DNA from: Siphonodentalium dalli
Lineage: Eukaryota; Mollusca; Scaphopoda; Gadilida; Siphonodentaliidae
NCBI GenBank assembly: GCA_032622095.1
Contig: CP136066.1
Coordinates: 208,034,978-208,098,977 of the forward strand
Length of the DNA: 64,000 nt
Direction of reading: 5' to 3'
Shown here: one piece after another, positions 1 to 42,694 of the stretch
Layout of the letters: each line of letters opens with the position of its first letter
Position numbering within the stretch: position 1 is the first letter of the stretch
Made by a program: the position numbers and the translations under genes
Notes under the pieces: generated by a model
Seen by the model: only the letters and a program-made list of their open reading frames with translations
What the model was told of the DNA's origin: nothing
Database searches by the model: none

Positions 1-113
1 GGCCAGGCCTGAGATTTGGTAAATTGACTTTGCGAGGCCTAATAGGTTAATAATAGGATAGTAATGTATAACACAGCACACAACATTTTCAAAACTATTA
101 ATAACGGACTTAC

Positions 114-189
114 TTGATGGGGGATCACTGTGGGTACCCTCTTTGTACAGACCAGGGAAATTCTCTGTGTCTGTGCTCTCAAAACTCAT
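114..189 (-). CDS. candidate first coding exon of a minus-strand gene
   Basis: On the minus strand an ATG at 189-187 opens a 25-codon reading frame that begins MSFESTDTENFPGLYKEG and ends one base into the next codon (phase 1) at a consensus donor, GTAAGT, at 113-108. The amino-acid mix is normal for protein and contrasts with the AT-rich noise around it. The rest of the gene would lie left of the window. I do not recognise the family. The ATG sits in GGCCATGA, an acceptable start context. A palindromic TATA-like stretch (577-587) lies about 390 bp upstream and could be a promoter, which would imply a long 5' UTR or a UTR intron. Support is one good donor plus plausible coding sequence, so this is a candidate only. 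Confidence 0.42.
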
Positions 190-1028
190 GGCCAGTCAGT
201 ATGGAATCAACACATCACTTCACTTTGTCCACAATTCCTGAAATATTAAAGAACAAAAAAGTTGGTTAAATTCTTTCTGAAAAGGTATATTTGCAGAGAA
301 ATATACATGTGGTATGCATAATCAGAGATATGGCGATCTTGTAGTTTGAGATCGCGGGTAATACTGAAGATCGTAGGACAGTAGACTACATTTACATGCA
401 AATTACTATATTAAATTCAGGTTTTATCATGTGGGGTGCTACAACATGCCACCCAGGAACAGAATTAGATTCAGGAAATGTTAACAGTTGAAAATTCAAT
501 GCCTATTCCTGAAACAACATGCCTGGAATATGAAGTTATACACGCCCCCCCTCACCCCAACTCGAGTGACGAGGCTCTATATATAGGTCTATCCCTTCTG
601 TCATGTTCTAGCAATCAATAAGAGTGATATTATTCTTTAAAACTGTAGTCATTAGATAGTTACTAGTATGTGCACACATTATGGTATCATACATGCAAGT
701 CATATAAAATGAAATTGTCAACAGTAAAATAACCATTCATTAAATTGGATATTGAGCATCCTTTATTAAAATAATGGATCGTTGCTTGTAAAATAATGTA
801 CGATCTCGACAATAACCATCCATTATCCTATAAACTGGACTCTATGAACAAAGGAGTGACATCATAGTCATGTTTTACTAGAATTTATGTCCAAACATAA
901 CATACATTTTTAAAATGACAAACTCACAAAGAATTAAATACTTATAATAATTATCTTCACTATTTATTGTCGGTTTTGTAAAGGATTGGCGCAGAAGGTG
1001 TGTAATTTTTACTTGTACTAAATGCTTT
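190..1028. other. upstream region of the left-edge exon, no gene seen
   Basis: AT-rich sequence without a convincing ORF. It holds a short C-rich stretch (544-560) beside the TATA-like palindrome at 577-587, which could be core promoter for the minus-strand exon at 114-189. Nothing else is recognisable. Confidence 0.4.
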
Positions 1029-2866
1029 CAAGTCTGCAAATCGTGTGTCTGTCATTTGCAGAATGAGGTCCACGGAGGGTGATTTTAGTGGGCTAGCTAG
1101 ACCCCAGCGGAATTGATTCAATGCGATTCAAATTCATTCGTCTAATTCTATATTGGCTACCATGATTCGGATTTTGTTGAATTTTTTGTGACGGGTGGAT
1201 TTCCGTGCTTTCTAGATCATAATGCTCTTACCAGAAAAGAATGTTCACTAGAATAAAGTAGTAAACGACTTAAAACATATGGACGTACCATTATGTTCGA
1301 TGGCAGGACATGTAATGTTATCGCCAACTAATCTATAAGTAATTGACCCAATCTATAAGAATGACATAAGTGAACAACAAAATTGCCATACAAGGCTTTG
1401 TGCCAGTGTCGTTCCAGGAATCATCAGAATTCCATAAAACACATGTATGCCAGATTTTAGATCTTTGTTTGATTTGCGAGTCTGAATCTAAGTCCTGAGT
1501 ATTTATGTAAACATTGTGCGGTAAGTCTGTCAGTTCAAGCGACAGACAACACATTCATCACAAGTGTAGCGAAAAATACTGTGCTATGAAATGAAATGAA
1601 ACAGGCATCATGCAGTATGCTTGTCCATATTTATGTCGACATTGGTTCTCTCATGCATGTACTAGTATGCTCTTACTCACGATTGCTTAGGCACAGAAAA
1701 TGTATAGAGGTGTGTAGATAAGCACATAATCTGCACATATTGCACTACATCGACGATCACCAGGCGGTTTTCGCCAGGCAATTTTTGAAGTTCTATGTAT
1801 TTGAACTCGATTGGCTCAGTAACAATGATTCAATTCCAGATTCGATTCGATTTCGGATCATTTTTCCCCGATTCAATTCAAAATAAAAACACCCGATTCA
1901 AAGGGCCCTAGGACTAGCATTACCAAATTCACCCTCTGGGAAACTCATTCTGCTTAGGCCTAATCTTCTGGCAAGTATATATAGTCTCAAATTAACATTG
2001 TTTTTAGTTACTTTTACCCTTCTGGGAAGATTCTATATCCCCTAATTTGCAGAAGATAAAATGCATAATCAAGGTGATTAATGGGTGAACATCACCAACT
2101 TCAACTGGAGAACTTTAATCTGATCCTAGGTCTCCCATAGCAGTTGAGGCCTAAGCAGAATGAGGTTCCCAGAGGGTGAATTTGGTGATGCTAGCTATCT
2201 TGCGGGATAGCATCACTACATTCACCCTCTGGGGACCTCATTTTGCAGCAGATAAAATGCATAATCTAGGAGACTAATGGGTGAACATCAACCTGACCTT
2301 GACCTTCAACTTGGGAACTTCAATCTGATTTTAACCCTTTACCCAACAAAGCGGCCAAAAACGCCCAAATAAAGCTTCAACAGCCTAAAATATCTTCGGT
2401 CTGTCTCAATAGAACCATACAAATATGGATATCATTGGAACCGGCTCATTGACCACATTGTGATGGTTACAGTTATGCCCTGTGCCAATGCATTCTCTTA
2501 TATATGCGAGTCGACCATAGGTCGCCTCGCATATATAAGAGAATGCATTGGCCTAAACAAATTCTTTTTTAACACTTTTAACCATTTTTTCTTACATTTT
2601 TTATAATATTTTTCTACATTCTTTGACAATTTTATCATTGTTAATATGTGTTAAGCCAATGCATTCTCTTATATATGTGAGGCGACCTATGGTCGACTCA
2701 TATATAAGAGAATGCATTGGCACAGGGCCGTTCTGTTGGGTAAAGGGTTAAAGTCTCCCATAGCAGTTGAGGCCTAAGCAGAATGAGGTTCCCAGAGGGT
2801 GAATTTGGTAAATTCACCTCTGGGGACCTCATTCTGCAAATGACAGATACACTATTTGCAGGCTTG
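1029..2866. repeat. TIR-bounded element with internal palindromes (family also at 12358)
   Basis: The left end (CAAGTCTGCAAAT... then GTCATTTGCAGAATGAGGT) is repeated in inverted orientation at the right end (2815-2866). Inside, the motif GCAGAATGAGGTYCCCAGAGG recurs in both orientations near 1060, 1925, 2155, 2225 and 2780, so the element folds into several hairpins. Blocks with ATTCGATTC-like low complexity lie between. It is interrupted by the TTAA-flanked MITE at 2331-2751. No protein-coding capacity is seen. A shorter relative with better terminal repeats lies at 12358-12817. Non-autonomous DNA element is the likely class. Confidence 0.6.
2331..2751. mobile_element. piggyBac-type TTAA MITE with two internal hairpins
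   Basis: The ends read TTAACCCTTTACCCAACA and, inverted, TGTTGGGTAAAGGGTTAA. TTAA target duplications followed by CCCTTT are the hallmark of the piggyBac superfamily. Inside are two palindromes (about 2467-2552 and 2655-2722) built on GCCAATGCATTCTCTTATAT and its complement; the central loops of the two are reverse complements of each other. A second copy lies at 50552-50952. No transposase is encoded. Confidence 0.75.
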
Positions 2867-3307
2867 TTGTGTATGGCATGTCCAGGTAAGAAGATTGACA
2901 TGTTGGTGATTGAAATTGTAGAACGCAGAAAACTTGCAAAAGCCTATTTGCGGAACACACATTTGTCATTAAGTTTGTTGTACTAGTTAACGCTACCATG
3001 TTAATTAATTACCAGTGACTGAATGCTTGTGTTCGGCTTTTCGATGCCGAACACAAGTTTATGCAATTTACAAAACGTGCATTAAAGATATTAGTGATCT
3101 TAACTACACAAATTTCACATGAGTCTAGTTTAAACATAAATATGCATGCCCATCAACTTTATTTGTTGTATTTCCTCTTATTTGGACTTGTGTTCAGTTT
3201 TGTTTGGTTAATTGTGTTCATGTTATTTTATAGCAGTATTGGTGTTATACTGCATCGCGCATCGATAGTTGACTACTCTTTGTGTGTAATGTGCTGTGTC
3301 ATTTTTA
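2867..3307. other. no gene seen; one short perfect hairpin
   Basis: AT-rich sequence. The only structure noticed is a hairpin at 3026-3057 with 12-bp perfect arms (CTTGTGTTCGGC) and an 8-base loop. The long open frame here is hydrophobic, low in complexity and lacks any coding signature. Confidence 0.4.
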
Positions 3308-5198
3308 TAGGGGTGCCACGATTAATCGTATAATCGATGAACCGTTGATAAAGCCGATAATCGATTACCATTTCCGTCCTTGATTAATCTGCATTATTTA
3401 TTTCGGACATTGGAAAATGCTGGGTATTGTTGAATATCGTGTTTGTTTTACACAATTTAATCTACAACCAAGGGTGAACAACTTTGATCATGTATTGAAG
3501 AGATTCCGACAACATGAGTACTACTAATATATGTTGCAAACAGTCAGCAGTTAATTTTATGATGCGACATGGTTACTCTTCAGGTCATTGTATATTCTTC
3601 AAATTGGCGGCACTATGTCTTTGAACATATGGCGACGTCGTTGTATATTTCCACAAGAAAGGTGGCACTATGTCTTTGAAATGTGCTGACTGTCACCGTT
3701 TTCAATGAACTGAATGCACTCGCCCTTGAATTTGATTGGACCAATGGGGAGTTTAAACCTTTAAAAACCACGGCATTTTAATCAGCGATTTTCTCCGCGA
3801 TGTCATTTGCAGCAAGTATATACTTTGTTTGTATACATGTAAGTACATGTATACTTAGATGTTAGATGTTATTAGTACAGGCTATCACTTATCGTGTGGT
3901 GACTAAAATAAATAGGGTAGGTAGGTAGGGAACTTTTTTTTTTTATTATTCTGAATTCCATTGGGTGATTGACAATTCAATCTAGAAAGCTTCACAATTC
4001 ATATTAATTGAAAGGCTGAATAATAAATATTGTTTTCTTGAATTAGTCAGAGCACTAGACTAATAAAACTTTTGAAAATGGTTAAGATACCTTTCGATTC
4101 CCTTCGGACTCAACAAAACGAGAGGCCGATCATGATCGGCAGATGTTTAAACCATACCTTGGCGATAGTGATTAGCTATTTTTATAAATCCTTACACCAA
4201 CATTTTCATGAGTGCAAAAGTTTCAACAATTCACACTTTAAATAGTGATCCTGTGAAAAATATTTACTTATCACATTGTGTCAACAGGATTGGTGGGAGG
4301 ATGTTAATATTTTTAAGCAAATAAACCAAATGCGATAGCGATTAGCTAGTTGTATAAATCTTTACACCAACCTTTTCATGAGTGCAAAAGTTTCAACAAT
4401 TCACACTTTATATAGTGATCCTGTGAACAATATTTACTTATCACATTGTGTCAACAGGATTGGTGGAGGATGTTAATTTTTTTTAAGCAAATAAACCAAA
4501 TGACCCTCATTTGCAGGTTAGGGGTGTGTTATCATAAACTAAGCAAGAACTATAAACATAATCAATGGAAATATTTGAGTTATCAAATCGGATAGTATGT
4601 GGTTAATCTTACCCAAACAGAAAACAAAACTGGACCAGAGAGTCATCAATCACAGTTTGACATATGATAAACAAACCCTGCCAGCCACCACTTGTAGTAT
4701 CTAATGTCCATAGCAATAAATAACTCATTTCAATTACACACCTGGTCTGTGTTATATGTTCTCTACAAATTCACAGCAGCAAAGAGGTATTAATTACCTG
4801 AATTATAAAGGACAATAACTCGGATCAAACCCATATTCGAACTCGATCTGTATTTAGGGGTGATAAATTCATATACCAAATTTGGTGTTGATCAGATGAA
4901 AAATGCTCTGTTCGTCAGTGTTCGTTCTAATGAACTCACACATATTATAACCATGAAATCGCGAGAACTGTGGTGGTATTGAATACATTGTGCTCATTAG
5001 TCATTAGTTTATGATGCACTTTATTAACGTAAAAATTACATCAGCTGATGTCTCAAACAACCAGCGATAGCAGTTAACAAGCCCCCAGCCAATAGGCCAT
5101 ATTACCGAATACTTCCACTGATATTAATATTAGGTACGATTAATTTATTATTGACGACCGATTATCGATTATTAAAATCAATAATCGTGGCACCTCTA
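3308..5198. mobile_element. hAT-like non-autonomous element
   Basis: The left end (T)AGGGGTGCCACGATTAATCG is matched by an inverted right end, ATAATCGTGGCACCTCT(A), at about 5180-5198. Short ends of the type AGRGGTGCMACGATTAATCG followed by ATCGATTA-rich sequence are typical of non-autonomous hAT elements in animals. I could not find an exact 8-bp target duplication. The interior has no transposase ORF and contains the 170-bp tandem duplication at 4162-4500. Confidence 0.6.
4162..4500. repeat. direct tandem duplication, about 170-bp unit
   Basis: Two adjacent copies begin at GCGATAGTGATTAGCT (4162) and GCGATAGCGATTAGCT (4332). They differ by a few substitutions and a small indel. They share the block with GAGTGCAAAAGTTTCAACAA and the ATTGTGTCAACAGGATTGGT segment. 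Confidence 0.85.
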
Positions 5199-5727
5199 AT
5201 ATTTTGCGGTATAAAGTGTCTGCATTGACCATGAATGTGTTGTCAAGGTCCCTGGTCACTATGACTGATATCAAAACAAGATCTTTGGATATAAAATTCC
5301 CGCTTGAACTGTGAAAAGAATTGCTGACTCTGGATTGCTGGATATGATCACTCTGATTTGATTGAACTCCTCCCATCAACTGAATGTGATTCGCCAATGT
5401 GTAAGTAAGTGTTTGATAACTTGATAAACAGAACAACTGCCAAGATGAAGAATGCACGTGAATATTTCTGAACCATTAACAGAGTATGTGTACAAGAATA
5501 GCATGATTGGCTATACTATACTAATTGTGGATTGATTTTGATTCCGATCATGGACAGATTCACTATAACATACATTCTATTTGCTATTATTTTATATTCA
5601 GCTGTTCAAAACTATATCATATCATCGAAATGTTTCAGCAACAAAGAATTAGATTGAATCAATGCAACTGAACGAACATGATATCATTCAGTAACCTTTA
5701 CACCTACACATAACACCGTTACTGTTA
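5199..5727. other. no gene seen
   Basis: A minus-strand open frame crosses this stretch and the hAT-like right end, but its composition is serine- and leucine-rich without domain resemblance and it extends into the transposon terminus. I regard it as chance. Confidence 0.4.
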
Positions 5728-5833
5728 CTACAGTAATGTCCTAAATAAACGACCCCTAAATCACAGCAGAATTATGGGAAATATTTCAGGATTTAGGTGT
5801 AAATATGGCTTGTTGCCATTTATTGGAAAGCTC
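5728..5833. repeat. half copy of the hairpin repeat found whole at 50398-50545
   Basis: The block from CTACAGTAATGTCCTAAATA to GCCATTTATTGGAAAGCTC matches, in inverted orientation, the right half of the repeat at about 50440-50545. Only one arm of the hairpin is present here. Confidence 0.6.
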
Positions 5834-5867
5834 TATAACATGTTTAAATATAATATGCTCGCACAGT

Positions 5868-6070
5868 TTGCAGGGTATAGATGTTAGTGAGACTGGTCGA
5901 TAGTTGGAGGGTTCTGAACGGTCTCCTTTTTAATAAAGGGCTGAGATGTTAGCAGTCCTCCAGTCATGGGGCACCCGTTGTTGTTTCAGTGACTTCTCAC
6001 AGATGAATTTGAGGTAGTGTGCATGCGGCTCAAGCCACATAGCTTTGTTATGGATAGAATCCATCCCATG
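5868..6070 (-). pseudogene. LINE reverse transcriptase fragment
   Basis: Read on the minus strand, 6070 to 5870 gives a piece of a non-LTR reverse transcriptase. It contains RVPHDWRTANISALY, then a stop codon, then KGDRSEPSNYRPVSLTSIPC. This is the conserved stretch before the RT palm (VPxDWRxAxVxPIFKKGDRxxxxNYRPVSLTS in jockey/CR1-type elements). The frame is broken by the stop and the fragment is about 65 codons long, so it is a dead remnant. It may or may not belong to the same insertion as the RNase H remnant at 6446-7220 on the same strand. Confidence 0.75.
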
Positions 6071-14164: not shown

Positions 14165-14734
14165 ATGATTCGAGAACAAGAGTGTGTTATATCCACACAT
14201 CGGCGTAGAGTGGCTCTTACGTCATGGAACGCACAAGGATTTGCGAACAAATCTCAAAATACCGAATGCTTGGAACATTTGTGTAAATATGACTTTATTA
14301 CAATTTGTGAGACTTGGCACAAAGATGCATCAGATATACAAATAACAGGATACCGATGTATTGAAAACAGACCGAAATCTGATTCTATTAAAGGAGGGGT
14401 TGCATTTTATTGTCGTACAGAGTACGAGAAATGGATTGAGATAATTAGATAATTAGATAATTATATTATAGCTGTTGAATTTAATGGTGGATTATTCAAT
14501 TTACAATCCAAAATTGTTTTCATATCAGCTTACATTCCGCCCACTAACTCTTCAAGCTGGAAGACAATGGAGGAAAAAGAAAGAATATTCTCTTCTCTTA
14601 AGTTGTTGTTGAATAAATATGGGTTAAATGACATGATTATTTTAAGTGGAGACTTCAATGCGCGCACTGGGAAAATACCAGACTATGTTACAGATGATAA
14701 TGACAGATGTTCCACTACCCGAAAACTATATAAT
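14165..14734 (+). pseudogene. LINE endonuclease, N-terminal part
   Basis: The frame starts near ATG 14165 and contains VALTSWNAQGFANK and FITICETWHKD, the N-terminal motifs of APE-type endonucleases. A TAA at 14450-14452, inside a small AATTAGAT tandem duplication, stops it. The same frame continues after the stop with FISAYIPPTNSSSW and ILSGDFNARTG (the GDFNA catalytic-site motif) and ends at TGA 14732-14734. Around 14706 the reading frame should shift into the next ORF. Two lesions within 300 bp show it is inactive. Confidence 0.85.
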
Positions 14735-17045
14735 TGATACCATATGTCCCCGCGAAAATTTGGACGGACAAATCAACTCATTCGGTAGACAACTTATATC
14801 ACTTTGCAAATCTTCATCTTTGCGCATTGTAAATGGAAGGACAACCGGAGACCTTCTCGGAAACTTCACAAGTTACCAATATAATGGTTGTAGTGTCGTT
14901 GACTATATTCTAATGTCTGAAAGATATCACTCAGATATTACATATTTTTGTGTCAAATCACCGAACAAGTATTCAGATCACAGTCAATTAGCTTTGCATA
15001 TAGAATATACTCCTAAAAATGCACGCGAACAACAAACTAAATTCACTTACGCTAAAGTTCAACATTCTTTGAAATGGACCCCAGAAAGTTCTTACAAAGC
15101 TGAAAAAGCTCTGGGTACTAGGGAAATTCATAATAAGCTAATGCAATTTAGATTAGGTACCTACGAAAACAATGAAAATGGAACTGAGAACGCGATTGAA
15201 AAATTCTCATCAATTTTGACTGACATAAACGGGAAAGCATCGAAACGGATTAATTGTCACAAAACACACCAGAAGAAGAAAAATAGATGGTTTGATAACA
15301 AATGCAAAACCCTCAAAAATGACATGAAAACCATTGCACATGCTATGAAAAAAAATCCATATGACAAATCATTGGTAAGCAACTTTCATGCAGCAAAAAA
15401 AGCCTATAAAAGAGAAATAAAACATAAACGCAAGTTGTTTCACCAATCGTTACAGGATCAATTAACTTCTCTGGAAACTTGTGACCCGAGTGAATATTGG
15501 AACATTATTAAAAATATAAGAGCGACCAAGCAATCTGACTATGATAGCCTCAACCCCGACTCTGCTGTCGAGTTTTTCAACGGACTATATTGTCGTGAAA
15601 ATACTGATACAACAGTTTATACTTTGAGAACAGATGAGCCATTGATTGCGAATAATCTTAATAATGAAAAAATAACACAAAGCGAAATTATCGCTGCTCT
15701 GCGAGAAATTAAGAACAAAAAATCTCCCGGCATAGATGGTATAAGAAATGAATTACTTAAAACAGTAGTTCCTATTATTATTGAAGATGTCACACGTCTA
15801 TTCAATATTATACTTAAGTCTTCTCATTATCCAAGAAAATGGAGCGAATCAATACTGAAACCAATTTACAAAAAAGGCGATAGGAGTGACCCCAATAATT
15901 ACCGAGTGATTGCTCTGAGTAGTTCAGTAGGGAAATTATATAACAAAATTATAAATAAGAGAATAATGAAATTCTTAGAAGAAAATAATCTGATAAGTGA
16001 AAACCAATTTGGTTTTCGAAAAAACAAGAGCACAATAGATAGTGCTTTCATTTTGAAAACATTAATCGCTACGTACCAAAAACAAACAAAACCACTCTAC
16101 GCAGCGTTTATAGATTTCCGTAAAGCATTTGACTCCATAGATAGGGAAATACTTTTCCAAAAAGTTAACCGCATTGGGATTACTGGTAACCTCTTACACA
16201 CATTAAAGTCCATGTACAATTCGAGTTATTATATGACGCGGACACGGGATGGGGTGGGACCTAAACAATTATCAAATATTGGAGTAAGGCAGGGATGTAC
16301 TGTGTCTCCCACACTATTTAATATTTTTGTAGATGACATATCGGACATTTTTGATCAGTCATGCTCGCCTGTGAATATTGGGAACACGGCCATCAATCAT
16401 CTTCTTTTTGCCGATGACCTTATCTTATTATCTGACTCACAGGACGGCTTACAAAACTGCCTGAATAATTTACAAGTATATGTAAATAACAACAACCTTG
16501 CAATTAATACTGAAAAAAGTAAATGCATGGTATTTCGAAAAAGAAAAACTCTAAAATTTCCCTCGTTCAAGAATGGCAATCTTCCCATTGCACTTGTTGA
16601 TGAGTACACATATTTAGGCATTAGATTCTGTGCTAATGGGTCATTGAGAAAAGCACAAAATGAAGTAAGCAACAAGAGCATGAAGGCACTCTATTCGCTT
16701 GTTAGGTCACTACAACAACACGATATATTCTCAATTAATTTGTGGAACAAACTGTATGATAAACTCATTAAACCCATTACACTATATGGTTGCGAAATAT
16801 GGGCCTCTGATATCAACCTCAACAATATAGATACTGCGCCATGTGAATCGTCTCATCTCAATTTTTACAAACGAGCACTTGGAGTACACAGGAAAGCATC
16901 AAATCACGCGGTACGTGATGAGCTTGGGAGATACCCCGTTGTTTATGAAGCATTATCTCGTGCTGCTAAATATGCGTTAAAAATATCGACTGCAGACAAC
17001 ATTCCCTCGTTCATAAATCAGCCACAATGTCCGATGACCGCATAA
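14646..17045 (+). pseudogene. LINE endonuclease C-terminus plus reverse transcriptase
   Basis: A 799-codon open frame whose true homology begins at about residue 20, after the upstream frameshift. Residues about 80-115 finish the endonuclease (VVDYILMSERYHSD and KYSDHSQLALHI). RT motifs follow: KSPGIDGIRNELLK (about 358), NYRVIALSSSVGKLYNKIIN (about 418), FIDFRKAFDSID (about 488), NIGVRQGCTVSPTLFN (about 544) and the catalytic FADDLILL (about 587). The C-terminal region includes LYGCEIWASD. The frame ends early at 17045 through another frameshift; homology continues in a second frame from 17027. The RT itself is uninterrupted, so decay is fairly recent. Confidence 0.92.
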
Positions 17046-17393
17046 TCCCAAATAAGTGGTCCTTTAACTTTGACATTCCAAAACTCACCGAAATTATTGA
17101 TAAAACTGATCAGTATTTGAAGAAAGTTCAACACACTATTTGTGATAGTTTCAAGGTTGACCATGTGTCGTGTTTCAGAAGAGATATATATAACGATGAA
17201 AAACCATCAGGTAAGAACAAATTGAGGGTGTATAGAGAAATAATAAGTGATTACCGATTGGAGCCATATTTGGACATAGTAAAAAATATCGAAGTAAGAA
17301 AGATCTTCAGCAAATTAATTGCGGATTAGCAATCATACTCTAGAAATTGAAAAAGGGCGCCATAAACAACCGAAGATTCCTGTAGACAAGAGA
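16937..17393 (+). repeat. 457-bp direct repeat, copy 1 (end of LINE ORF2)
   Basis: Base-for-base identical by eye to 18998-19454 (offset 2061). It encodes the end of the RT frame, the frameshifted continuation MSDDRIIPNKWSFNFDI to the stop at 17329, and the start of the zinc-tail region. Both copies carry the same frameshifts, so these predate the duplication. After 17393 the sequence switches to the nested LINE. Confidence 0.95.
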
Positions 17394-18997
17394 GAGAGAT
17401 TGTTTATTCCTCCACACACGGGAGACGTAGTGTACAACGTATATACAATTACATAATCAAAAAATATTAAGAATAATAAGGCGTTACGTATATGTTATCA
17501 GAACAGACACGAATGCATCGTGTGAAATTAGAAGCAATTACTGTACTATATATACGTGTATATATAACGTCAATACTACCCCATATACACATGTATATAT
17601 AATAAATTGCATGGCGATTGCAATCACAGAGGTCATATATCTACAAATTATAATTATACGTCAATGTCTATAATGGCATATAATAAATTAGATATCGATA
17701 TATGGTGGCATTCCATATAATATACAGAGATGCGATGTTATCATTGATATTGTGATATTCGTATACTTTAGTATACTGTAGATAGTAATAATAAAATTGT
17801 ATTGTTACATATGCTATTTTGTTTCCCGACAAATTTGGGATATTAAAGATCAGCAGTATACATGATGCATGAATCAATATAGGAGTCGCCACTCGCAAAC
17901 AATCATATGTAACATAATACACTTATGAACGAGAAGCAGTCTGCGAATAAACTATTTTCATTGGGAATATCTGAGGGATCAAGTCCGCCCAGCGACTGGC
18001 ATCCAAATGCATACATTAGAAATTCATTGCAAGACAATTGATCCATCGTGACAAAGATTGGGATACCGTGGACATTAATAATTCTATACCAGAAGCAGTT
18101 CTTCAGTTGAACTATATGTGGTGAGAAACAATGGAGAAACATGTGTTCAACCTGGTTATGGTACAAATGGCCACAGTGTTTGCAGATAGTATTATTATCA
18201 TATGTCGTGCGGTTGAGAATGTTAGCCATTTGTACCGCTTTCTGTAGATAATTAGGGTTGTGCCAACAGAGCTTCCATCCCCTCCAGGTAGACATATGGC
18301 AAGGTTTTACTCTGCGAAAAAACTCAAGGGAGTCCACTCGTTCAGGTTGATTTGGTTGTGACGTTGTGTGAGACATATTCTGTTTCACAATAGCTTTCCA
18401 ATGTGATTGAATAGGGAAGAATCCTGTTTCAGCGAATGATGTGAGATACTCATATAGGTTGTATTTTGTAAGAATAGGAATAATGTCTCCTGTGAAGCCA
18501 ATTGGAGGGCGTTTAAATATTATATAACCATGTAGATTGAATAGGAAAATGCGGAGAGCGACACGGTGGTTGCATGGTAAATTTATTAAGGTGCCCATGA
18601 ATAAAAGTTTTTTCTTTTCAATTTCGAGTCTGAGTGGATTGACTCCGAGCAGAGACAATGCGATTTCTGTGCTCGCCCTTGTCGGTAGACCTTGAATTGT
18701 TTTGATGCACATGCGGTAAGATCGCTCAAGTTGTAATATGTTGGCTTCTGATAGCCGGTACCACATCTCACAGCCGTAGAGAGCTTTCGGGAGAACCACG
18801 TGTGTAAATATGGTCAGCTGAGAGATCGGCGAAAGACATTTCGTGGTAAATGACCTGCATGCACCGAAAAATGTTTTCCGCATTATCTCACATGACCTAT
18901 CAATGTTCGTTTTACGATCTGATCTGCGGTTTTGTGGTATTCCGAGGTGCACTACACTCTCCACTTCTGCTAAGTTATTCTCACCAAGAATCCACTT
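17394..18997 (-). mobile_element. nested 5'-truncated LINE
   Basis: Read on the minus strand, it starts abruptly in coding sequence at 18997 (WILGENNLAEVESVVHLG) and runs through a C-terminal ORF2 domain and a 3' UTR. It ends at ...AATAAACAATCTCTCTC next to 17393. Abrupt 5' truncation with an intact 3' end is the signature of target-primed reverse transcription. The direct repeats on both sides are 457 bp long, far above the usual LINE target duplication of roughly 7-20 bp. Confidence 0.85.
17903..18997 (-). CDS. C-terminal part of LINE ORF2 (intact frame, 5'-truncated)
   Basis: An uninterrupted frame of about 365 codons from the truncation point to the stop at 17903. It begins after the RT catalytic core, so no FADD box is present. 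Visible motifs are LPKALYGCEMWYRLSE, LPTRASTEIALSLLG and a terminal zinc motif CKHCGHLYHNQVEHMFLHC (C-x2-C-x9-H-x4-C, 18183-18127). These are typical of the C-terminal half of LINE ORF2. There is no stop or frameshift, unlike the host LINE, which argues for recent insertion. The fragment has no start of its own. Confidence 0.8.
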   Translation of the reverse strand, partial: KWILGENNLAEVESVVHLGIPQNRRSDRKTNIDRSCEIMRKTFFGACRSFTTKCLSPISQLTIFTHVVLPKALYGCEMWYRLSEANILQLERSYRMCIKTIQGLPTRASTEIALSLLGVNPLRLEIEKKKLLFMGTLINLPCNHRVALRIFLFNLHGYIIFKRPPIGFTGDIIPILTKYNLYEYLTSFAETGFFPIQSHWKAIVKQNMSHTTSQPNQPERVDSLEFFRRVKPCHMSTWRGWKLCWHNPNYLQKAVQMANILNRTTYDNNTICKHCGHLYHNQVEHMFLHCFSPHIVQLKNCFWYRIINVHGIPIFVTMDQLSCNEFLMYAFGCQSLGGLDPSDIPNENSLFADCFSFISVLCYI

Positions 18998-19454
18998 CGT
19001 TGTTTATGAAGCATTATCTCGTGCTGCTAAATATGCGTTAAAAATATCGACTGCAGACAACATTCCCTCGTTCATAAATCAGCCACAATGTCCGATGACC
19101 GCATAATCCCAAATAAGTGGTCCTTTAACTTTGACATTCCAAAACTCACCGAAATTATTGATAAAACTGATCAGTATTTGAAGAAAGTTCAACACACTAT
19201 TTGTGATAGTTTCAAGGTTGACCATGTGTCGTGTTTCAGAAGAGATATATATAACGATGAAAAACCATCAGGTAAGAACAAATTGAGGGTGTATAGAGAA
19301 ATAATAAGTGATTACCGATTGGAGCCATATTTGGACATAGTAAAAAATATCGAAGTAAGAAAGATCTTCAGCAAATTAATTGCGGATTAGCAATCATACT
19401 CTAGAAATTGAAAAAGGGCGCCATAAACAACCGAAGATTCCTGTAGACAAGAGA
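18998..19454 (+). repeat. 457-bp direct repeat, copy 2
   Basis: Identical partner of 16937-17393. Here the host LINE sequence continues past the repeat (GAGAATATGCAGAAAGTGTG) into the zinc tail, so this copy keeps the original downstream junction, while copy 1 keeps the original upstream junction. Confidence 0.95.
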
Positions 19455-19712
19455 ATATGCAGAAAGTGTGGATTGGAAACGGAAACTGAGGAACATTTTA
19501 TTTTAAAATGTCCTATTTACAAAAGCATTCGTCTCCGTTTCTTTGACGAAATAAATAAAGTAAATCACAAGTTTATTAATATGACTGATGCCCAAAAATT
19601 CATTTTCATACTGCGAAATGACAAAACAGAAACGTGCAATATCATCTGTAACATGGTCCGTCTCTTTTTCCACAAAAGGTCTGAAACACCAGATTTTCAA
19701 CAACAAACATGA
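19380..19712 (+). pseudogene. LINE ORF2 zinc-binding tail
   Basis: A 110-codon frame with LRISNHTLEIEKGRHKQP, then RICRKCGLETETEEHFILKC (C-x2-C-x8-H-x4-C), the conserved end of the host LINE's ORF2. It is out of frame with the preceding segment (stop at 19390) because of a frameshift near 19375. The 3' UTR follows and ends with AATAAACTTATCTTATCT. Confidence 0.85.
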
Positions 19713-19845
19713 TTTTTTTTCCATTTTAATTCTGATTACAATTGTGTATACTTATTGTATCATATATATATTTATTGTTATTAATGTTGTGACATCGGCC
19801 CCGTGTGGGTGTAATTGTCAATAAACTTATCTTATCTCATCAGCA

Positions 19846-22204: not shown

Positions 22205-22230
22205 GTTAAGTTTCTGGTACAAACCGAATA

Positions 22231-22440
22231 AATTGATACCCTATATATGCTGTGAAGGAATTGATACCCTATACGTTGTGAAGAAATTGATACCCTATAT
22301 TATGTGAAGGAATTGCTACCCTATACGTTGTGAAGGAATTGAGACCCTATACGTTGTGAAGGAATTGATACCCTATACATTGTGAAGGAATTGGTACCCT
22401 ATACGTTGTGGAGGAACTGATACCCTATACGTTGTGACGG
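22231..22440. repeat. minisatellite, about 8 units of 26 bp
   Basis: Consensus unit close to GAATTGATACCCTATACGTT followed by GTGAAG, with a few variants per unit. There are no unique spacers. Confidence 0.9.
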
Positions 22441-22779
22441 TTATGACATCACGGCAACAGTTAGGACGTTTTGAACAAGAATAGCTACGTCAAGATCACA
22501 CGGGCTATCCAGTGGAGTAGATTAAGTCCAATGTTGAAGGCAATTGTTCAAATTTTTATTAAAGGATGAAACGTTATATGTATATATTCACATACTTATT
22601 GATATTTGATGTGGAGCCACGCTGAAATTTCACTTTAACCCCTCTTTTAATGGGTTTTCCAAATTTAAAGAGCGTTTAGTGATTATATTTTAATTAAATG
22701 TCACAATCAATCTTACCATGAAATATGCGATTTAAAATTAGGTATATACAGTAAGTATGACTCTGAGAGATATAATGCC
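22441..22779. other. no gene seen
   Basis: AT-rich sequence between the minisatellite and the large palindrome. Confidence 0.4.
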
Positions 22780-29053: not shown

Positions 29054-32000
29054 CAGGGCCTGGAACCTACGTCACCGGAAGGGTAACCCTACATAAAAAT
29101 AACTGTAAATAAAGTTCGACTCGCTACTTCGACATCGTTTTTTAAATAAATACAATCGATTTCGATGTAGTATTATAAGCAAAGGAACTATGCGACCTGC
29201 AAATCTCAACAAATACAGAAACCGAAAATCGGAAAGAATTGCTTATAATGAGAATTTCGCGTTCGCAATTCAAAATCGCGTCCGATTTCCTATTTTCGTG
29301 CAGGTGTTAACGCCAACATTTCATGTTCTCCGCGCCCTAAACTCATTTAAAAACCGTATACATTGAGTTTCGGGATATTATAAATGCTAAAATTTGAATC
29401 AATAACAAAAAAATAACTTTTCCGTGGTTTGTTTGTAAATTTCTTAAGACACAAAGAATTTTTATGAATTTGTCTATTAATGGTAACGCCCACATCGCGT
29501 TGACGCTCACATATTGGCCTGTTTGCACTAACAATTGAGTCACCATCCGTATAATCCGGTAGATGAATCCGGTGTTCACATATACACACTCTGTTAAATG
29601 CGTTACAATACACAAATGGCTGTTATATATAGAGATGCCAATATACTATTTGATAATACTATATATAAAGACGAACATAAATTAATGGCATAATCATTGT
29701 TTTTATGTTCTCGTTGTATATTCGGTAGTTTAATTAAGTGTATGTCATGTCATTCGTTCTCTTATTCCATATTCATTGTAGTATTACTTTGTTATTCCAG
29801 TCTATTTCCGTTGGTTGAATCCATGTTAATTTGTTCATATTTCCAGTTTCGTCTGATAGTTGTCGTTAAAAAATTATCATGCAATAAATATTTCTTTAAT
29901 TATATTCTATTACTAACATTCATTGTTTACCCATGTTTATTGATAATGAATTGAATGTGTTATTCGGTCCAGGAACCTTCGTTGTCAAACAATTAATCTG
30001 GTCACGCATCAATTATATTCGCAATCCAAAACCAAAACATCGGGATATATGTAACGGATAAATACACCCTGTCCCATCATCAGTCAATAATCATAAAGTA
30101 TGGTTAGGTACTCAAGTCCCAAAAACTAATTGGTCACATATATATTAACTATAGCAGGTTATATAGTGAATTGTGAACATAATATGGTTCCTGTGGCTGG
30201 ATATTCATTTAGTTTGGTTATGTTTAACATTATATATATTACAAAATTTTATATAAACTGGATATTCCGTTTATTGAATACTTTTGCGGACAAAAATGAT
30301 ATATACAAGGAAAAAAACCAACTTAATGTTGAATAGAAGAAAAAAATACAACAAAAAGAGGCTTGTTGTGTCGTCTAAGAGGGGGGGTCTACAAACAAAA
30401 TTCCGTATGTAGGGCCGGGGTGGGTGGGTGGTCCAGAGGCGGAAAAAATCGTGCTTGTAATTGTTTTCTATATAGCAGCTATAGTGACCTCTTTAGCCTC
30501 AAATTTAGCAACATTCTGGATTTCACAGGATCCCGGACCACTTCACAGTGGACCACCGTAATAGCGTTCAGGAAACTTATTATCAGCGGAAGAAATATTT
30601 AGTAACACAATTAATATATTACCCAGTTGTATTACTTGAATAAAAGTAATAAAACATAAAAACTGTATCACAAATTGGATACTACATGGTGAATACTCAA
30701 TGATGACTATATATCATTAACATGATTGTTGCATAACATGAAATTGAAAAGGGTATCTCATAAATTTCTAATGTCTGAAATACTGTCTTGTCCTGGCATG
30801 TAATCAAATTCATTCCTCCTGGTTATTTCTCATCTTGAATGATTGCAAGTAATGTTAATTTGCAACAATTATCAAAATAAAACTGAATTGGTCATGATGA
30901 ATGACCGTTAACTGTTTACTGCTCAGACAATCCCAACTGAAGGTGACGCTATTCTCATTGAATTTCCGAACTTCATCTTGGAGCTTTACTGCTCAACAAG
31001 ACTAAACTAAAATACTAATTGTATACTGTTATCACTTACAAATAGATGAACTGAAATAAAGTGATGCATTAAGAAATGACATTCAATTCTTCATTCTGGT
31101 CTATCACCATACCAAACCACATCAAAATTCGACAACCGACACTTAACTTATATTGCAAAAGCTTTGTACGGACTGAATTTCATGAAGTCGAACACGGCCC
31201 ATAACTCTGGTAGGGATTAATAGTCACAACCCGTGATATTATGCATATTCGTTCCCCATTTCTGGTCCGTCACCATGCCATAGGGCATAAAAATATGACA
31301 ACCGACTCTTAAGTTATAATGTAAAATGATTGTACGGACGGACGGCTCGAGACGTCAACTATATACCAGCCGACTAATATTGGGCGGTATAATAACCATA
31401 TATCTGTGTATACCTAACCAAAAACAATTCCCCTCCCCACCCCACCCCGGTGGAGAAGACTTAAAAGAGTTCTTTGGTCATCTACAAATAATTGTGGAAC
31501 CCCTGACCTGTTTACCACTATTTACACTGGTCGGTGTTCTCTGTCAGACACAACACACTCGATTTATTAAGGCTATGATGGGGTCTAGGGCGATTTGTGA
31601 CATATAGTGTACCTACACAATGCTTTATTATTGTTGTTAGATACTGAAAACACACGGAAACGTCTGGAAATACAGATTTTTTTTCGTTTTTTTCTGATCT
31701 GTGTTTACCAATTAGTAAGACAGTTAACACAGTTATTGAAGAACGGCTAAAAAAAACTCTGAAATTTTGATAAAAATATGAGAAAGAGGGGGTGGGTCCC
31801 CAAAATTTTGGAGGAAAACAATATTTTTTCGGGTGGTGGGTCCCTCTGGTCAGAAAAAAAACTTTTTGGTGTGCAATTTTTTTCCAGACCCCCCCCCCCC
31901 CCACTGGCTGGCTCAACCAATTTTCGTGGCTGGTTATCTGGCTAAGCCGGCTTAGTCACGACGTTCGTGGCTGACGAAATATGGCGGCTCAGTCGGCTGA

Positions 32001-33418
32001 GACGTTATCATTCAGAGTATTTCGTTTCCGAATTTTCCTAATACCCGGTTATAGACACCCGCTGGTTTTAGCGTTTGTTGTGAACCCGTAGATTTCCAGA
32101 CCACGCGTGTTTTTTTTGGTGTTGGGCTTTTCCGTTATGGCGAGAATACACGAAGGCCTCAGAAAATGACTGGCAGTGATGTACTATGTAGTTTCCCATC
32201 TATATAATCGGTATAAGTTACATTGCGACTTCTGTCGACTTCAGACGGCTATCATCACTGGCATCTTGCGATATATGCATGCATCATTGAATGCTGAATC
32301 CGATAGTATTGATATATAATATGTCAAACTATTTTATATTACCTTAAATTCTACATGTTATGTGCATATATTGACAAATGTCAGCGATATGAGACTGAGT
32401 CGTGTCGAAATAAACGATTTCGCCATCGGCAGTCACTGCATTTAATTAGTATATAAGAATGACTGTGTGTGTTGTCAATTTAGATATAACATTTGTAAAA
32501 ATAACTACTTTGAACATGATTATTCTCCACTTCTATTCGATCACCTTACCGGAGTGTTTCACATCACTTTAAAAGTTTTTTTTTTATTAATTTCAGAAAC
32601 ATTTGAATTTGAAATAAAAAATGAATAATACAACTTAAAGCTTCTTCCTGGTTCAACTCAAGCAGTGGCGATATTGCGATTTATTCATTTATCAAAGTTT
32701 GGTTTATTTTAGCCTATAATTATACATGTACATGATGCATCAACCAGAATGACCATTTTTCTTATTCCCTATAATAATATTGATATATAAAGGTCATATA
32801 ATTACTTATTATTTTATTCATTTATGTCTTGTGATAGTTATTCCGTGAAAAACGTATTAATTAGCCTGCCACAAGTGAAGTAGTCTACTTTTGAGCCGAT
32901 ATATACCGATTCGCCTCGGCAATATTCGGGGATCTTATAGCGAGGGAAGAATTATACTCTTGCGCTGCCATAAGTTCCATTAACTGTGAAGGCATACACT
33001 ACTCACTAGTCCTAAAACTAATTGTGATATTCGGCAAGTGAAAGAAAAAATTCAGCCAAATTGCCAATTTTGGAATCAAATGTTGACTATATGTAGGCGT
33101 TACCATTTATGTCACAATTCCAGTTTTAAAAGTCAATGTAGGCGTTACCATTTCAAAACTCTGAAACATGCCTCGAAAATTGGTGACGGAAACCACCTGA
33201 ACGCGATAATCTTTACATCCGTTACATATATATCTCCGTATAGATGACTGTGAGGCTGTGAGCTAGCAAACAATGTTTTACAGCTCATAAGCAATGATTT
33301 TTTTTAGTGGTTTATGAACATAGTTTGCAAAAACGATAAATACTTACTTCGAGTCGCACCGAGCAGCCGCCATTTTTCGGTGAAAAACTTTGTTTTATGA
33401 CGTAGATTCCAGGCCCTG
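29054..33418. mobile_element. 4.37-kb TIR element, copy 1
   Basis: It starts CAGGGCCTGGAACCTACGTC and ends with the complementary sequence (one mismatch), ...CCAGGCCCTG. Subterminal motifs repeat too: TGGTAACGCCCACAT at about 29481 and, inverted, ATGTAGGCGTTACCA at 33093 and 33135, plausible transposase-binding sites. CAGGG termini are compatible with hAT-like transposons, but no 8-bp target duplication was found. No long ORF exists. The small open frames (for example 29697-29954 and 31326-31607) are copied in the second element and show no domain. It is therefore non-autonomous. Confidence 0.75.
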
Positions 33419-36400
33419 CAGGGCCTGGAACCTACGTCACCGGAAGGGTAACCCTACATCAAAATAACTGTAAATAAAGTTCGACTCGCTACTTCGACAT
33501 CGTTTTTTAAATAAATACAATCGATTTCGATGTAGTATTATAAGCAAAGGAGCTATGCGACCTGCAAATCTCAACAAATACAGAAACCGAAAATCGGAAA
33601 GAATTGCTTATAATGAGAATTTCGCGTTCGCAATTCAAAATCGCGTCGATTTCCTATTTTCGTGCAGGTGTTAACGCCAACATTTCATGTTCTCCGCGCC
33701 CTAAACTCATTTAAAAACCGTATACATTAGGTTTCGGGATATTATAAATGCTAAAATTTGAATCAATAACAAAAAAATAACTTTTCCGTGGTTTGTTTGT
33801 AAATTTCTTAAGACACAAAGAATGTTTATGAATTTGTCTATTAATGGTAACGCCCACATCGCGTTGACGCTCACATATAATGGCCTGTTTGCACTAACAA
33901 TTGAGTCACCATCCGTATAATCCGGTAGATGAATCCGGTGTTCACATATACACACTCTGTTAAATGCGTTACAATACACAAATGGCTGTTATAGAGATGC
34001 CAATATACTATTTGATAATACTATATATAAAGACGAACATAAATTAATGGCATAATCATTGTTTTTATGTTCTCGTTGTATATTCGGTAGTTTAATTAAG
34101 TGTATGTCATGTCATTCGTTCTCTTATTCCATATTCATTGTAGTATTACTTTGTTATTCCAGTCTATTTCCGTTGGTTGAATCCATGTTAATTTGTTCAT
34201 ATTTCCAGTTTCGTCTGATAGTTGTCGTTAAAAAATTATCATGCAATAAATATTTCTTTAATTATATTCTATTACTAACATTCATTGTTTACCCATGTTT
34301 ATTGATAATGAATTGAATGTGTTATTCGGTCCAGGAACCTTCGTTGTCAAACAATTAATCTGGTCACGCATCAATTATATTCGCAATCCAAAACCAAAAC
34401 ATCGGGATATATGTAACGGATAAATACACCCTGTCCCATCATCAGTCAATAATCATAAAGTATGGTTAGGTACTCAAGTCCCGAAAACTAATTGGTCACA
34501 TATATATTAACTATAGCAGGTTATATAGTGAATTGTGAACATAATATGGTTCCTGTGGCTGGATATTCATTTAGTTTGGTTATGTTTAACATTATATATT
34601 ACAAAATTTTATATAAACTGGATATTCCGTTTATTGAATACTTTTGCGGACAAAAATGATATATACAAGGAAAAAAACCAACTTAATGTTGAATAGAAGA
34701 AAAAAATACAACAAAAAGAGGCTTGTTGTGTCGTCTAAGAGGGGGGGGGTCTACAAACAAAATTCCGTATGTAGGGCCGGGGTGGGTGGGTGGTCCAGAG
34801 GCGGAAAAAATCGTGCTTGTAATTGTTTTCTATATAGCAGCTATAGTGACCTCTTTAGCCTCAAATTTAGCAACATTCTGGATTTCACAGGATCCCGGAC
34901 CACTTCACAGTGGACCACCGTAATAGCGTTCAGGAAACTTATTATCAGCGGAAGAAATATTTAGTAACACAATTAATATATTACCCAGTTGTATTACTTG
35001 AATAAAAGTAATAAAACATAAAAACTGTATCACAAATTGGATACTACATGGTGAATACTCAATGATGACTATATATCATTAGCATGATTGTTGCATAACA
35101 TGAAATTGAAAAGGGTATCTAATAAATTTCTAATGTCTGAAATACTGTCTTGTCCTGGCATGTAATCAAATTCATTCCTCCTGGTTATTTCCCATCTTGA
35201 ATGATTGCAAGTAATGTTAATTTGCAACAATTATCAAAATAAAACTGAATTGGTCATGATGAATGACCGTTAACTGTTTACTGCTCAGACAATCCCAACT
35301 GAAGGTGACGCTATTCTCATTGAATTTCCGAACTTCATCTTGGAGCTTTACTGCTCAACAAGACTAAACTAAAATACTAATTGTATACTGTTATCACTTA
35401 CAAATAGATGAACTGAAATAAAGTGATGCATTAAGAAATGACATTCAATTCTTCATTCTGGTCTATCACCATACCAAACCACATCAAAATTCGACAACCG
35501 ACACTTAACTTATATTGCAAAAGCTTTGTACGGACTGAATTTCATGAAGTCGAACACGGCCCATAACTCTGGTAGGAATTAATAGTCACAACCCGTGATA
35601 TTATGCATATTCGTTCCCCATTTCTGGTCCGTCACCATGCCATAGGGCATAAAAATATGACAACCGACTCTTAAGTTATAATGTAAAATGATTGTACGGA
35701 CGGACGGCTCGAGACGTCAACTATATACCCGCCGACTAATATTGGGCGGTATAATAACCATATATCTGTGTATACCTAACCAAAAACAATTCCCCTCCCC
35801 ACCCCACCCCGGTGGAGAAGACTTAAAAGAGTTCTTTGGTCATCTACAAATAATTGTGGAACCCCTGACCTGTTTACCACTATTTACACTGGTCGGTGTT
35901 CTCTGTCAGACACAACACACTCGATTTATTAAGGCTATGATGGGGTCTAGGGCGATTTGTGACATATAGTGTACCTACACAATGCTTTATTATTGTTGTT
36001 AGATACTGAAAACACACGGAAACGTCTGGAAATACAGATTATTTTTCGTTTTTTTCTGATCTGTGTTTACCAATTAGTAAGACAGTTAACACAGTTATTG
36101 AAGAACGGCTAAAAAAAACTCTGAAATTTTGATAAAATATGAGAAAGAGGGGGTGGGTCCCCAAAATTTTGGAGGAAAACAATATTTTTTGGGGTGGTGG
36201 GTCCCTCTGGTCAGAAAAAAATACTTTTTGGTGTGCAATTTTTTTCCAGACCCCCCCCCCCCCCACTGGCTGGCTCAACCAATTTTCGTGGCTGGTTATC
36301 TGGCTAAGCCGGCTTAGTCACGACGTTCGTGGCTGACGAAATATGGCGGCTCAGTCGGCTGAGACGTTATCATTCAGAGTATTTCGTTTCCGAAATTTTC

Positions 36401-37740
36401 CTAATACCCGGTTATAGACACCCGCTGGTTTTAGCGTTTGTTGTGAACCCGTAGATTTCCAGACCACGCGTGTTTTTTTTGGTGTTGGGCTTTTCCGTTA
36501 TGGCGAGAATACACGAAGGCCTCAGAAAATGACTGGCAGTGATGTACTATGTAGTTTCCCATCTATATAATCGGTATAAGTTACATTGCGACTTCTGTCG
36601 ACTTCAGACGGCTATCATCACTGGCATCTTGCGATATATGCATGCATCATTGAATGCTGAATCCGATAGTATTGATATATAATATGTCAAACTATTTTAT
36701 ATTACCTTAAATTCTACATGTTATGTGCATATATTGACAAATGTCAGCGATATGAGACTGAGTCGTGTCGAAATAAACGATTTCGCCATCGGCAGTCACT
36801 GCATTTAATTAGTATATAAGAATGACTGTGTGTGTTGTCAATTTAGATATAACATTTGTAAAAATAACTACTTTGAACATGATTATTCTCCACTTCTATT
36901 CGATCACCTTACCGGAGTGTTTCACATCACTTTAAAAGTTTTTTTTTTATTAATTTCAGAAACATTTGAATTTGAAATAAAAAATGAATAATACAACTTA
37001 AAGCTTCTTCCTGGTTCAACTCAAGCAGTGGCGATATTGCGATTTATTCATTTATCAAAGTTTGGTTTATTTTAGCCTATAATTATACATGTACATGATG
37101 CATCAACCAGAATGACCATTTTTCTTATTCCCTATAATAATATTGATATATAAAGGTCATATAATTACTTATTATTTTATTCATTTATGTCTTGTGATAG
37201 TTATTCCGTGAAAAACGTATTAATTAGCCTGCCACAAGTGAAGTAGTCTACTTTTGAGCCGATATATACCGATTCGCCTCGGCAATATTCGGGGATCTTA
37301 TAGCGAGGGAAGAATTATACTCTTGCGCTGCCATAAGTTCCATTAACTGTGAAGGCATACACTACTCACTAGTCCTAAAACTAATTGTGATATTCGGCAA
37401 GTGAAAGAAAAAATTCAGCCAAATTGCCAATTTTGGAATCAAATGTTGACTATATGTAGGCGTTACCATTTATGTCACAATTCCAGTTTTAAAAGTCAAT
37501 GTAGGCGTTACCATTTCAAAACTCTGAAACATGCCTCGAAAATTGGTGACGGAAACCACCTGAACGCGATAATCTTTACATCCGTTACATATATATCTCC
37601 GTATAGATGACTGTGAGCTAGCAGTGGTTTATGAACATAGTTTGCAAAAACGATAAATACTTACTTCGACTCGAGTCGCACCGAGCAGCCGCCATTTTTC
37701 GGTGAAAAACTTTGTTTTATGACGTAGGTTCCAGGCCCTG
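33419..37740. mobile_element. 4.32-kb TIR element, copy 2, joined directly to copy 1
   Basis: Same orientation and nearly the same sequence as copy 1; I see only scattered substitutions, short indels and a net loss of about 45 bp near the right end (around 37615-37625 against 33252-33313). The junction is CCCTG|CAGGG with no base between the elements. The right end lies 32 bp upstream of the start codon of the TSP1 gene. Confidence 0.8.
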
Positions 37741-40952: not shown

Positions 40953-41206
40953 GTATGAGAGACACATTGCTCCCTATGGGAGACTCGCATATATAACATA
41001 ATTGACCAATATGGCTTCACCGTCGAGCATCAGATATATTCAAGGCCCGCGCTGGCACGAAATGTACTTTTACAAAATATTTTGCCAAATGAAAATAATG
41101 TTTTGCCATATTCTAAATTCTGTAATTCTGGTTCTTCTCGAGTTTTTTATATTGAAAATGAGAACAATTATAAGTAGATCTATTTTACTTGTATTTGTTG
41201 ATGATA

Positions 41207-41853
41207 GGTGACACTCCACAGTTTCGAATGATCAGTAGGGGTGATTTTATAGATATAAAGTGCTAGTGGTTTCTGGCACCATTCATGTGGTATGTATATT
41301 GAGACAAGGTGGGATATGAATTTGTGTAATTTTAGAAGGTGTTCTAGACTGATGAAAAAATTAAGTGCAAGTGACCTTGACCCCACCCATAGACAGCAGT
41401 AGCGTTTTCTGCGAAACAGTGGCTCTAGATACTGGGTCAATTTTTTAGCACCCAAAATTTGTCATCTGCATTAAAAATTGATTTTCTGGAAAATTTAACG
41501 GCGAAAGTTTGATATTTTTTCACATTGATTTTGGAAGCCAGAGGCCTTTAAACCAACATAGGTGACCATGCTTGAAAAAATCTGGTATTCGTGCCTCTTG
41601 GGTATGAAAATGCAATATTTTGGTCATTTTTTGAATAAAAATCACATTTTCGATCAAAAGATCAAGGGCCATAACTCTTGATAGCCCATATATTATGGAA
41701 ATAATGTATCAAATTCTGAATGCCTATTCTGTACTAATTTCAGGCATATATATATTGTCTATATGGTTTGGGATCATAATCCAGATAAATTTCAATGAAT
41801 CTATGGGCCCCCTATTTCTGGGCCCATACCTGTTGAAACTGTGGAGTGTCACC
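41207..41853. repeat. left terminal module of the composite element
   Basis: Bounded by GGTGACACTCCACAGTTTC and GAAACTGTGGAGTGTCACC. Left flank GATGATA, right flank TTAA. It contains a minus-strand open frame of about 90 codons also present in the right module, without domain resemblance. Confidence 0.85.
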
Positions 41854-42694
41854 TTAAAGACCAGCAAACAGCACCATTATCATCTGTCAACTTGACAAAT
41901 ATTTACATTGAAAATCATTTTTAGCAAATCTGCTCAGTTAGAAGGAACATTTTATGTTAAATACACCATTCTTCTATGGATATTCCAATACAGGTGGCCT
42001 TTAGACATATAAATTGGTGGGGATATGGAGTCTTGGAGCAGTGGGGGGGGGGGGGGGTGGTGGTGGTTCATGTGTATTGTTATTGATGATTTTTTAGATG
42101 ATGGGTACTTCTTCATGACATCATGCTCCTTGAATCTTAGCTGAAAAGGCTGACATTGACATTACACAGTATACTAAAAGATTAGATATTCAGTATTTCT
42201 TATTCACAAGTGTGAAATATAATAATTCAGGTTTCCCTGGACATATTTCACTTGACAACATATTGTTCATGTGATGTCATAACCTTGTATAGCTTTCCCT
42301 TAATGCTAAATAAGACTTGGAATTGTTTAACCCATGGTTTTGGGAGAGTATTAAAGATAGTAGTTGCATGAAATATTATGTTTTATTTTGATATCTGAGG
42401 AAGATATGCATCTCATAATATATTTTATACAACATTTTAGCATTTCAGACCTTTTTCAAGCTATAAATGATGGTTGAATATATACATTTTGTCACTACGT
42501 CAAGCATAACGTCATTGGGTTCTGAAAGACCCAAAAGAGGTGAAATCATGGGGGTGCCTGTAAATCCCCACCCAATCTTGCTGCCTGTGATTGCAATAAC
42601 GCATGGGGTGTAATATATCATTTTAAGCGGTATAATGCAGAGAATATGGAGGTGTGGTCCATATTAAAGATTAGTGAAATTGCATTCCCCTTAA

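Follow-up and report, generated by a model that had tools for sequence, protein, structure and literature searches.

A 64,000-nucleotide stretch of the scaphopod Siphonodentalium dalli (contig CP136066.1, positions 208,034,978 to 208,098,977; the window) holds a long interspersed nuclear element (LINE) that is nested in a different LINE and flanked by two identical 457-bp blocks. Counting one case of about 7.6 kb, 21 of 44 insertions of the nested family carry flanking repeats of at least 49 bp. These repeats are probably target-site duplications (TSDs) of an APE-type LINE, whose integration appears normal at the 3′ end of the element and uncoordinated at its 5′ end. All structures were read from the assembly sequence.

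The duplication in the window

The two blocks agree at 457 of 457 bases and abut the element exactly, as the sequence-only reading of the window had proposed; extension by even one base fails on either side. The 1604-bp insert bounded by them is the 3′ part of a multicopy LINE. Its terminus, AATAAACAA(TC)n, is the same as in further copies of the inserted LINE, and its 5′ truncation lies at position 4637 of the copy L021:1328-7580 (the ruler), within open reading frame (ORF) 2. The earlier description of a minus-strand LINE cut inside ORF2 and complete at its 3′ end is thereby confirmed. The surrounding element, here called the host LINE, contains a reverse transcriptase (RT) and a weak APE-like endonuclease match that scores under Pfam's cut-off. 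The features are collected in Table 1.

Table 1 Features of the nested insertion (window coordinates)
Feature	Position	Strand	Basis and remarks
5′-truncated LINE copy (C-terminal part of ORF2, 3′ untranslated region, (TC)n tail)	17394..18997	-	99.5% to L021 and L022; 3′ end like other copies'; ORF 17903-18964 minus
TSD copy at the element's 5′ end	18998..19454	-	same sequence as 16937-17393
TSD copy at the element's 3′ end	16937..17393	-	same sequence as 18998-19454
Inferred first nick, + strand ...GACAAGAGA^ATATGC	19454..19455	+	junction comparison; nick itself inferred
Putative break in the second strand, at a distance of 457 bp from the first nick	16936..16937	-	junction comparison
Host LINE (endonuclease-like ORF, RT, AATAAACTTATC tail); control family; approximate ends	14165..19841	+	ORFs, Pfam, 3′ end from copies

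Another copy of the host LINE, L076, aligns at 98.5% to the window flanks joined with a single block, over 2584 positions of the host and as many bases of the locus. The ancestral window site thus had one block, and the second was made by the insertion; this demonstration of a single-copy empty site concerns the window locus only. Repeats that adjoin both element ends and an ancestral site with one copy, as expected of a long TSD, were both found.

The inserted LINE family

In the genome (2.2 Gb, 9 contigs), a rough first look gave about 419 candidates for the insert, 40 of which were scored. The longest copies noted measure about 6.25 kb: the ruler, three copies in an array on C7, and C4:273.5, which begins at position 13. 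In L021, ORF1 (594 aa) has no Pfam match, and ORF2 (1203 aa) encodes an APE-like endonuclease and an RT (RVT_1 4.5e-24, Exo_endo_phos_2 1.4e-9, Exo_endo_phos 1.9e-6). The combination of these two domains in ORF2 is that of an APE-type LINE, and so is the varied 5′ truncation with a common 3′ end: copies start at positions 1 to 5933 of the ruler and share the (TC)n terminus, in a sample selected for 3′ ends. The short TSD of about 5-30 bp, a usual but non-essential trait of such elements, is missing, as none of the 21 blocks is below 49 bp. Most copies in the analysis match the insert or the ruler at 97-100%, which indicates a young family.

The ORF2 products of the inserted and the host LINE share 23% identity over 652 columns. 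All five copies read for this feature (L021, L022 and the three arrayed C7 copies) have the endonuclease motif SNH where the host LINE has SDH, at a position that we take to be the catalytic-site motif. The endonuclease domain, compared on its own with the PDB by sequence, gave no matches, so the reading of SNH and SDH draws on the sequence and on general background. In the RT active-site box (within L021:3447-7055), the inserted LINE reads TADD and the host LINE FADD.

Long duplications across the family

Forty-five insertions were read: the window, eight truncated copies, 12 found by a 3′-end search, L021, L022, the arrays C7 and C9, and 20 whose 5′ ends were placed later. One of them, L008 (C2:109744191-109748546, 94%), was excluded for its broken 3′ end, leaving 44. 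Selection was by element match alone except for three cases that were not blind to the flanks, namely the window, which is the original finding, and C7 and C9, which were taken because their matches lay close together. Nearly all copies were chosen for having a 3′ end; the sample leaves out the lower-identity matches C3:227608216, C2:93161346, C7:197618105 and C3:268191889 and copies with no listed 3′ end. A flanking repeat was scored if it had at least 40 bp and at least 90% identity and started within 8 bases of the 3′ junction, and mismatched flank pairs of the inserted LINE (n = 1892) served as null.

Junction-anchored direct repeats of 49-2466 bp were found in 20 of the 44 insertions with both junctions read, and in none of the 1892 mismatched pairs. 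The shorter blocks measure approximately 49, 51, 52, 54, 70, 116, 130, 166, 166 (plus 10 extra bases) and 240 bp, the longer ones approximately 457 (window), 460, 510, 576, 827, 901, 1997, 2305, 2313 and 2466 bp. With the C6:115.2 case discussed below, the 21 lengths have a median of 457 bp. If the window, C7 and C9 are set aside, 17 of 41 insertions remain, or 18 of 41 with C6:115.2. Full-length copies (L021 and C7) are among the insertions with long TSDs. For five of the long blocks, the known sequence of the 3′ copy covered no more than its initial 300 bases; the position of each far end was predicted, and 301 bases were fetched there. All five were located, four within 3 bases of the prediction and C3:188.9 within about 15. 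C2:124.6, one of the 20, had been flagged solely for its short 3′ piece, and its far end was subsequently located.

The sequence-only reading had suggested a search for other copies with flanks of 100 bp or more, and 16 of the 21 repeat-bearing insertions exceed 100 bp. Together with the single-block site in L076, these insertions support its proposal of a very long TSD. Gene conversion and a duplication whose junction was filled by a LINE, which it had named as alternatives, would not be expected to produce, at one site after another, blocks whose two ends coincide with those of the element. An assembly artefact or a later gene conversion between the flanks would account for the many block pairs that are 100% identical (in L021 over 2308 bases), and the structures do depend on the assembly. 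Still, the blocks have differing lengths at 20 sites and adjoin the element on both sides, some pairs differ (95-99.8%), and the host-LINE empty site holds one block. An origin of this kind is therefore considered extremely improbable.

C6:115.2 is counted as a TSD of about 7.6 kb that contains an indel of 2.3 kb. Its far end was not found at the first predicted place (L089), and a deletion in an array was rejected, as the site predicted for it (L102) was also empty. The end of the 5′ flank lies 9.9 kb downstream, where 414 bases match at 100%, and the block middles match in register at 100% over 1566 bp. The 3′ flank is also present in a separate, near-identical local duplicate (L086), which makes this case the weakest among the 21.

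Junctions

The duplication preserves the untouched target, and at 19 of 20 targets at least one T/C base at the joint agrees with the tail of the insert (at least two in 16 of 20). Target-derived T/C bases are counted as shared, so that the match holds partly by definition; it is given as description, with no statistical test. The joints fit a nick with a purine-ending 3′ end, often GA, pairing with the UC-repeat tail. The GAGA 3′ end at the first nick of the window insertion could pair in this way.

At the 5′ junctions there are either overlaps of 0-5 bases or 1-10 additional bases, with 52 in C7. For comparison, random joins gave a mean overlap of 0.7; the final counts were made by eye, and no enrichment is claimed. 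No common motif at the second break was seen by eye among the junctions.

Short overlaps and extra bases would also be compatible with endonuclease-independent patching, in which a double-strand break is repaired by duplication and LINE cDNA (complementary DNA) fills the junction. Patch insertions usually lack 3′ tails. The present inserts retain theirs (in a sample selected for 3′ ends, from which tailless copies would be missed), and 19 of the 20 joints share T/C bases with the tail, which renders patching very unlikely.

Insertions with no detected duplication

In 23 of the 44 insertions no TSD was detected. Neither in these nor in C6:115.2 (24 copies) was there a junction-anchored exact match of at least 6 bp, 4-5 bp being below the reach of the method; matches of 4-5 bases were seen by eye at the junctions of L015 and L020. 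The ordinary short TSDs at other copies, which the sequence-only reading had listed among the outcomes that would refute it, were thus not found. For 17 of the 23, a genome-wide search was made with the initial 95 bases of the 3′ flank (18 flanks; 40 of 9044 candidates scored; 18 of 18 selves recovered). Thirteen matched only themselves, though two of these had a weak match nearby; the remaining four (C1:1.37, L004, L012 and L014) lie in dispersed repeats with no partner consistent with the junction. The other six (L003, L006, L007, L016, L019 and C2:17.13) were tested within the fetched 1.5-2.7 kb only.

Both no-TSD sites with a near-identical empty homologue have lost DNA, 80 bp at L012 and about 57 bp at C1:1.37. 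Several further candidates were not accepted. A 4.2-kb TSD at L014 was rejected, as the partner (261 bp at 97.7%) falls short of the junction. In L017 and L001 the flank similarity is same-strand and weak (74-78%), and in L004 three 7-base matches keep their order within about 60 bases of the 5′ flank; all three were counted as having none. Deletions at L005 and L019 (gap 179) were not counted, the comparison repeats being just 71-90% similar. Diverged inverted repeats (74-89%) flank L005, L016 and L019, perhaps reflecting insertion into hairpin-forming elements.

The host LINE as control

The host LINE family was sampled likewise (24 copies fetched, 15 with a visible 5′ end). Long repeats were found in 0 of 15, and one copy (L095) has a short candidate of 6 bp. 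L099 shows 77-80% similarity in register with its 3′ flank and was counted as none under the same 90% rule. Fisher's test of the control against the inserted LINE gives p = 0.001 for 20/44, 0.002 for 17/41 and 0.012 for 14/41, the last with blocks up to about 1 kb. The control is imperfect: its copies are older (about 96.5-98.6% to the host copy in the window) and were read over 82-2150 bp upstream and 200 bp downstream.

The comparison bears on a cause in the host, i.e. a germline with weak nucleotide-excision repair (NER) or weak second-end control that would give long TSDs for any LINE. Servant et al. (PMC5223499) report TSDs of human L1 from 5 bp to 5.3 kb (median 1495 bp) in NER-deficient (XPA-, XPC-, XPD-) cells, the same size range as here, and a median of 14 bp in complemented cells. 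The control family likewise lacks short TSDs, and control of the second strand may be loose in this genome generally. Conversely, XPA_N and Rad4 (XPC) matches above cut-off are present in the genome, although presence does not imply germline activity, and the host LINE has no long TSD in its 15 copies, with the differences in age and in upstream reach given above. On balance, a host cause is judged unlikely.

Mechanism

In the mechanism that we favour, integration proceeds regularly at the 3′ end and seems to lack coordination at the 5′ end. Its start resembles ordinary target-primed reverse transcription, whereas the place of the second break departs from it. The element would nick one strand, and the cDNA would be primed from a purine 3′ end, often GA, paired with the UC-repeat tail, as the junctions suggest. 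The opposite strand would be left uncut within a few bases of the first nick. The cDNA would then be connected to a break at a distance of tens to thousands of bases, leaving the overlaps or few extra bases observed at the junctions. A downstream break would duplicate the intervening stretch (49 bp to about 7.6 kb), and an upstream break would delete it (80 and about 57 bp observed). Long duplication and deletion or no duplication are accordingly read as one process, with the second break far off on either side. This break may be random or made by the host rather than cut by the element.

Several points weigh against this reading. Deletions were measured at just two of the 23 no-TSD sites. At L017, comparison with diverged relatives of the target yields an overlap that resembles a duplication (299 and 416 bp), and at L005 the diverged repeats conflict, with gaps of 53, 76 and 265 but also -3, -215 and -217. 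Since sampling was based on 3′ ends, complete 3′ ends are no independent evidence for target priming. Ordinary short TSDs are missing from the control family too, so the effect may in part be genome-wide.

In a replication-linked version, the LINE would start at a fork, and the cDNA end would be joined to the sister chromatid or to a lagging-strand gap elsewhere, yielding duplication or deletion. This version overlaps the favoured mechanism, as it is one route to a distant second break. It would explain why duplications (21) and no-TSD copies (23) are about equally frequent, and it would allow kilobase blocks without kilobase DNA melting. The similar numbers may nevertheless be due to chance, because most no-TSD sites are unmeasured, and there is no fork mark in the sequence; we regard it as rather unlikely. 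A more far-reaching proposal, possible but doubtful, is a distinct integration mode in which the element would provide the first nick only, its ORF2 having lost second-strand control (SNH versus SDH). Such an element would duplicate or delete tens to thousands of bases and act as an engine of segmental duplication that seeded the arrays C7 and C9.

Arrays and consequences

In the C7 array, three full-length LINEs alternate with blocks that measure about 560 bp, the last one 510 bp; in the C9 array, two LINEs with the same truncation lie between blocks of about 2 kb. The arrays seem to be seeded by the long flanks, and the shared truncation suggests that amplification in C9 followed insertion. 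In C7 (L023-L025, C7:93180000-93203000), the end point of the last block and the start of the element are about 52 bases apart; this stretch may be filler or a transduced 5′ flank. The LINE copies at C1:1355410 and C1:1373098, 17.7 kb apart, share one truncation point and may represent another post-insertion duplication.

Retrotransposition would thereby offer a route to the duplication of kilobase blocks, leaving homologous flanks for tandem amplification. Second-strand cutting and joining of LINEs are described in PMC6895275 as still very poorly understood, and a natural family whose second-strand step is often distant provides a comparison for asking which part sets TSD length.

Other repeats in the window

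The window contains further repeats. A 4.2-kb direct tandem duplication at 29054-37740 (29054-33254 and 33419-37617) is 99.4% identical. At 41206-43341 lies a 648-bp direct repeat (99.4%, spacing 840 bp), the first bases of which recur inverted inside; this may be a terminal-inverted-repeat element. A 69-bp near-palindrome occurs in several copies (2484-2552, 50705-50922), and similar sequence is found in the duplicated block at C1:254.2. A minisatellite with a 26-bp unit and at least 7 units occupies 22218-22466.

Comparison with known systems

Ordinary LINE TSDs are short, around a dozen bases. In the literature accessible to our search, with most subscription journals outside its scope, no natural LINE family with routinely long and variable TSDs was found. 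The nearest natural case is R9 of bdelloid rotifers, reportedly described by Gladyshev and Arkhipova in 2009, a non-long-terminal-repeat element specific to ribosomal DNA and said to make a TSD of 126 bp. The likeness lies in the exceptional length. R9 is reported to have one fixed length, whereas the TSDs of the inserted LINE lie at unrelated sites and span an approximately 50-fold range of lengths, or 150-fold if C6:115.2 is included.

In HeLa cells, too, L1 occasionally makes long TSDs, and also deletions, according to work of Gilbert and of Symer cited in PMC5223499 and PMC2912911. They were noted for 5′-truncated copies, and long TSDs account for no more than 10% of events; here long TSDs occur in 21 of 44 insertions, full-length copies included. 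ZfL2-2 in chicken DT40 cells shows the same classes of target alteration, including one 1228-bp TSD among 25 wild-type events (PMC2666801). In that set 24 of 25 alterations are 20 bp or shorter, whereas no duplication so short was seen for the inserted LINE. The closest parallel is L1 in NER-deficient cells, an APE-type LINE that likewise produces kilobase TSDs as well as deletions, and for which a distant, unrelated second nick is proposed in PMC5223499. That system is a repair-mutant assay, whereas the present LINE family is a natural one, and its genome contains homologues of XPA and XPC.

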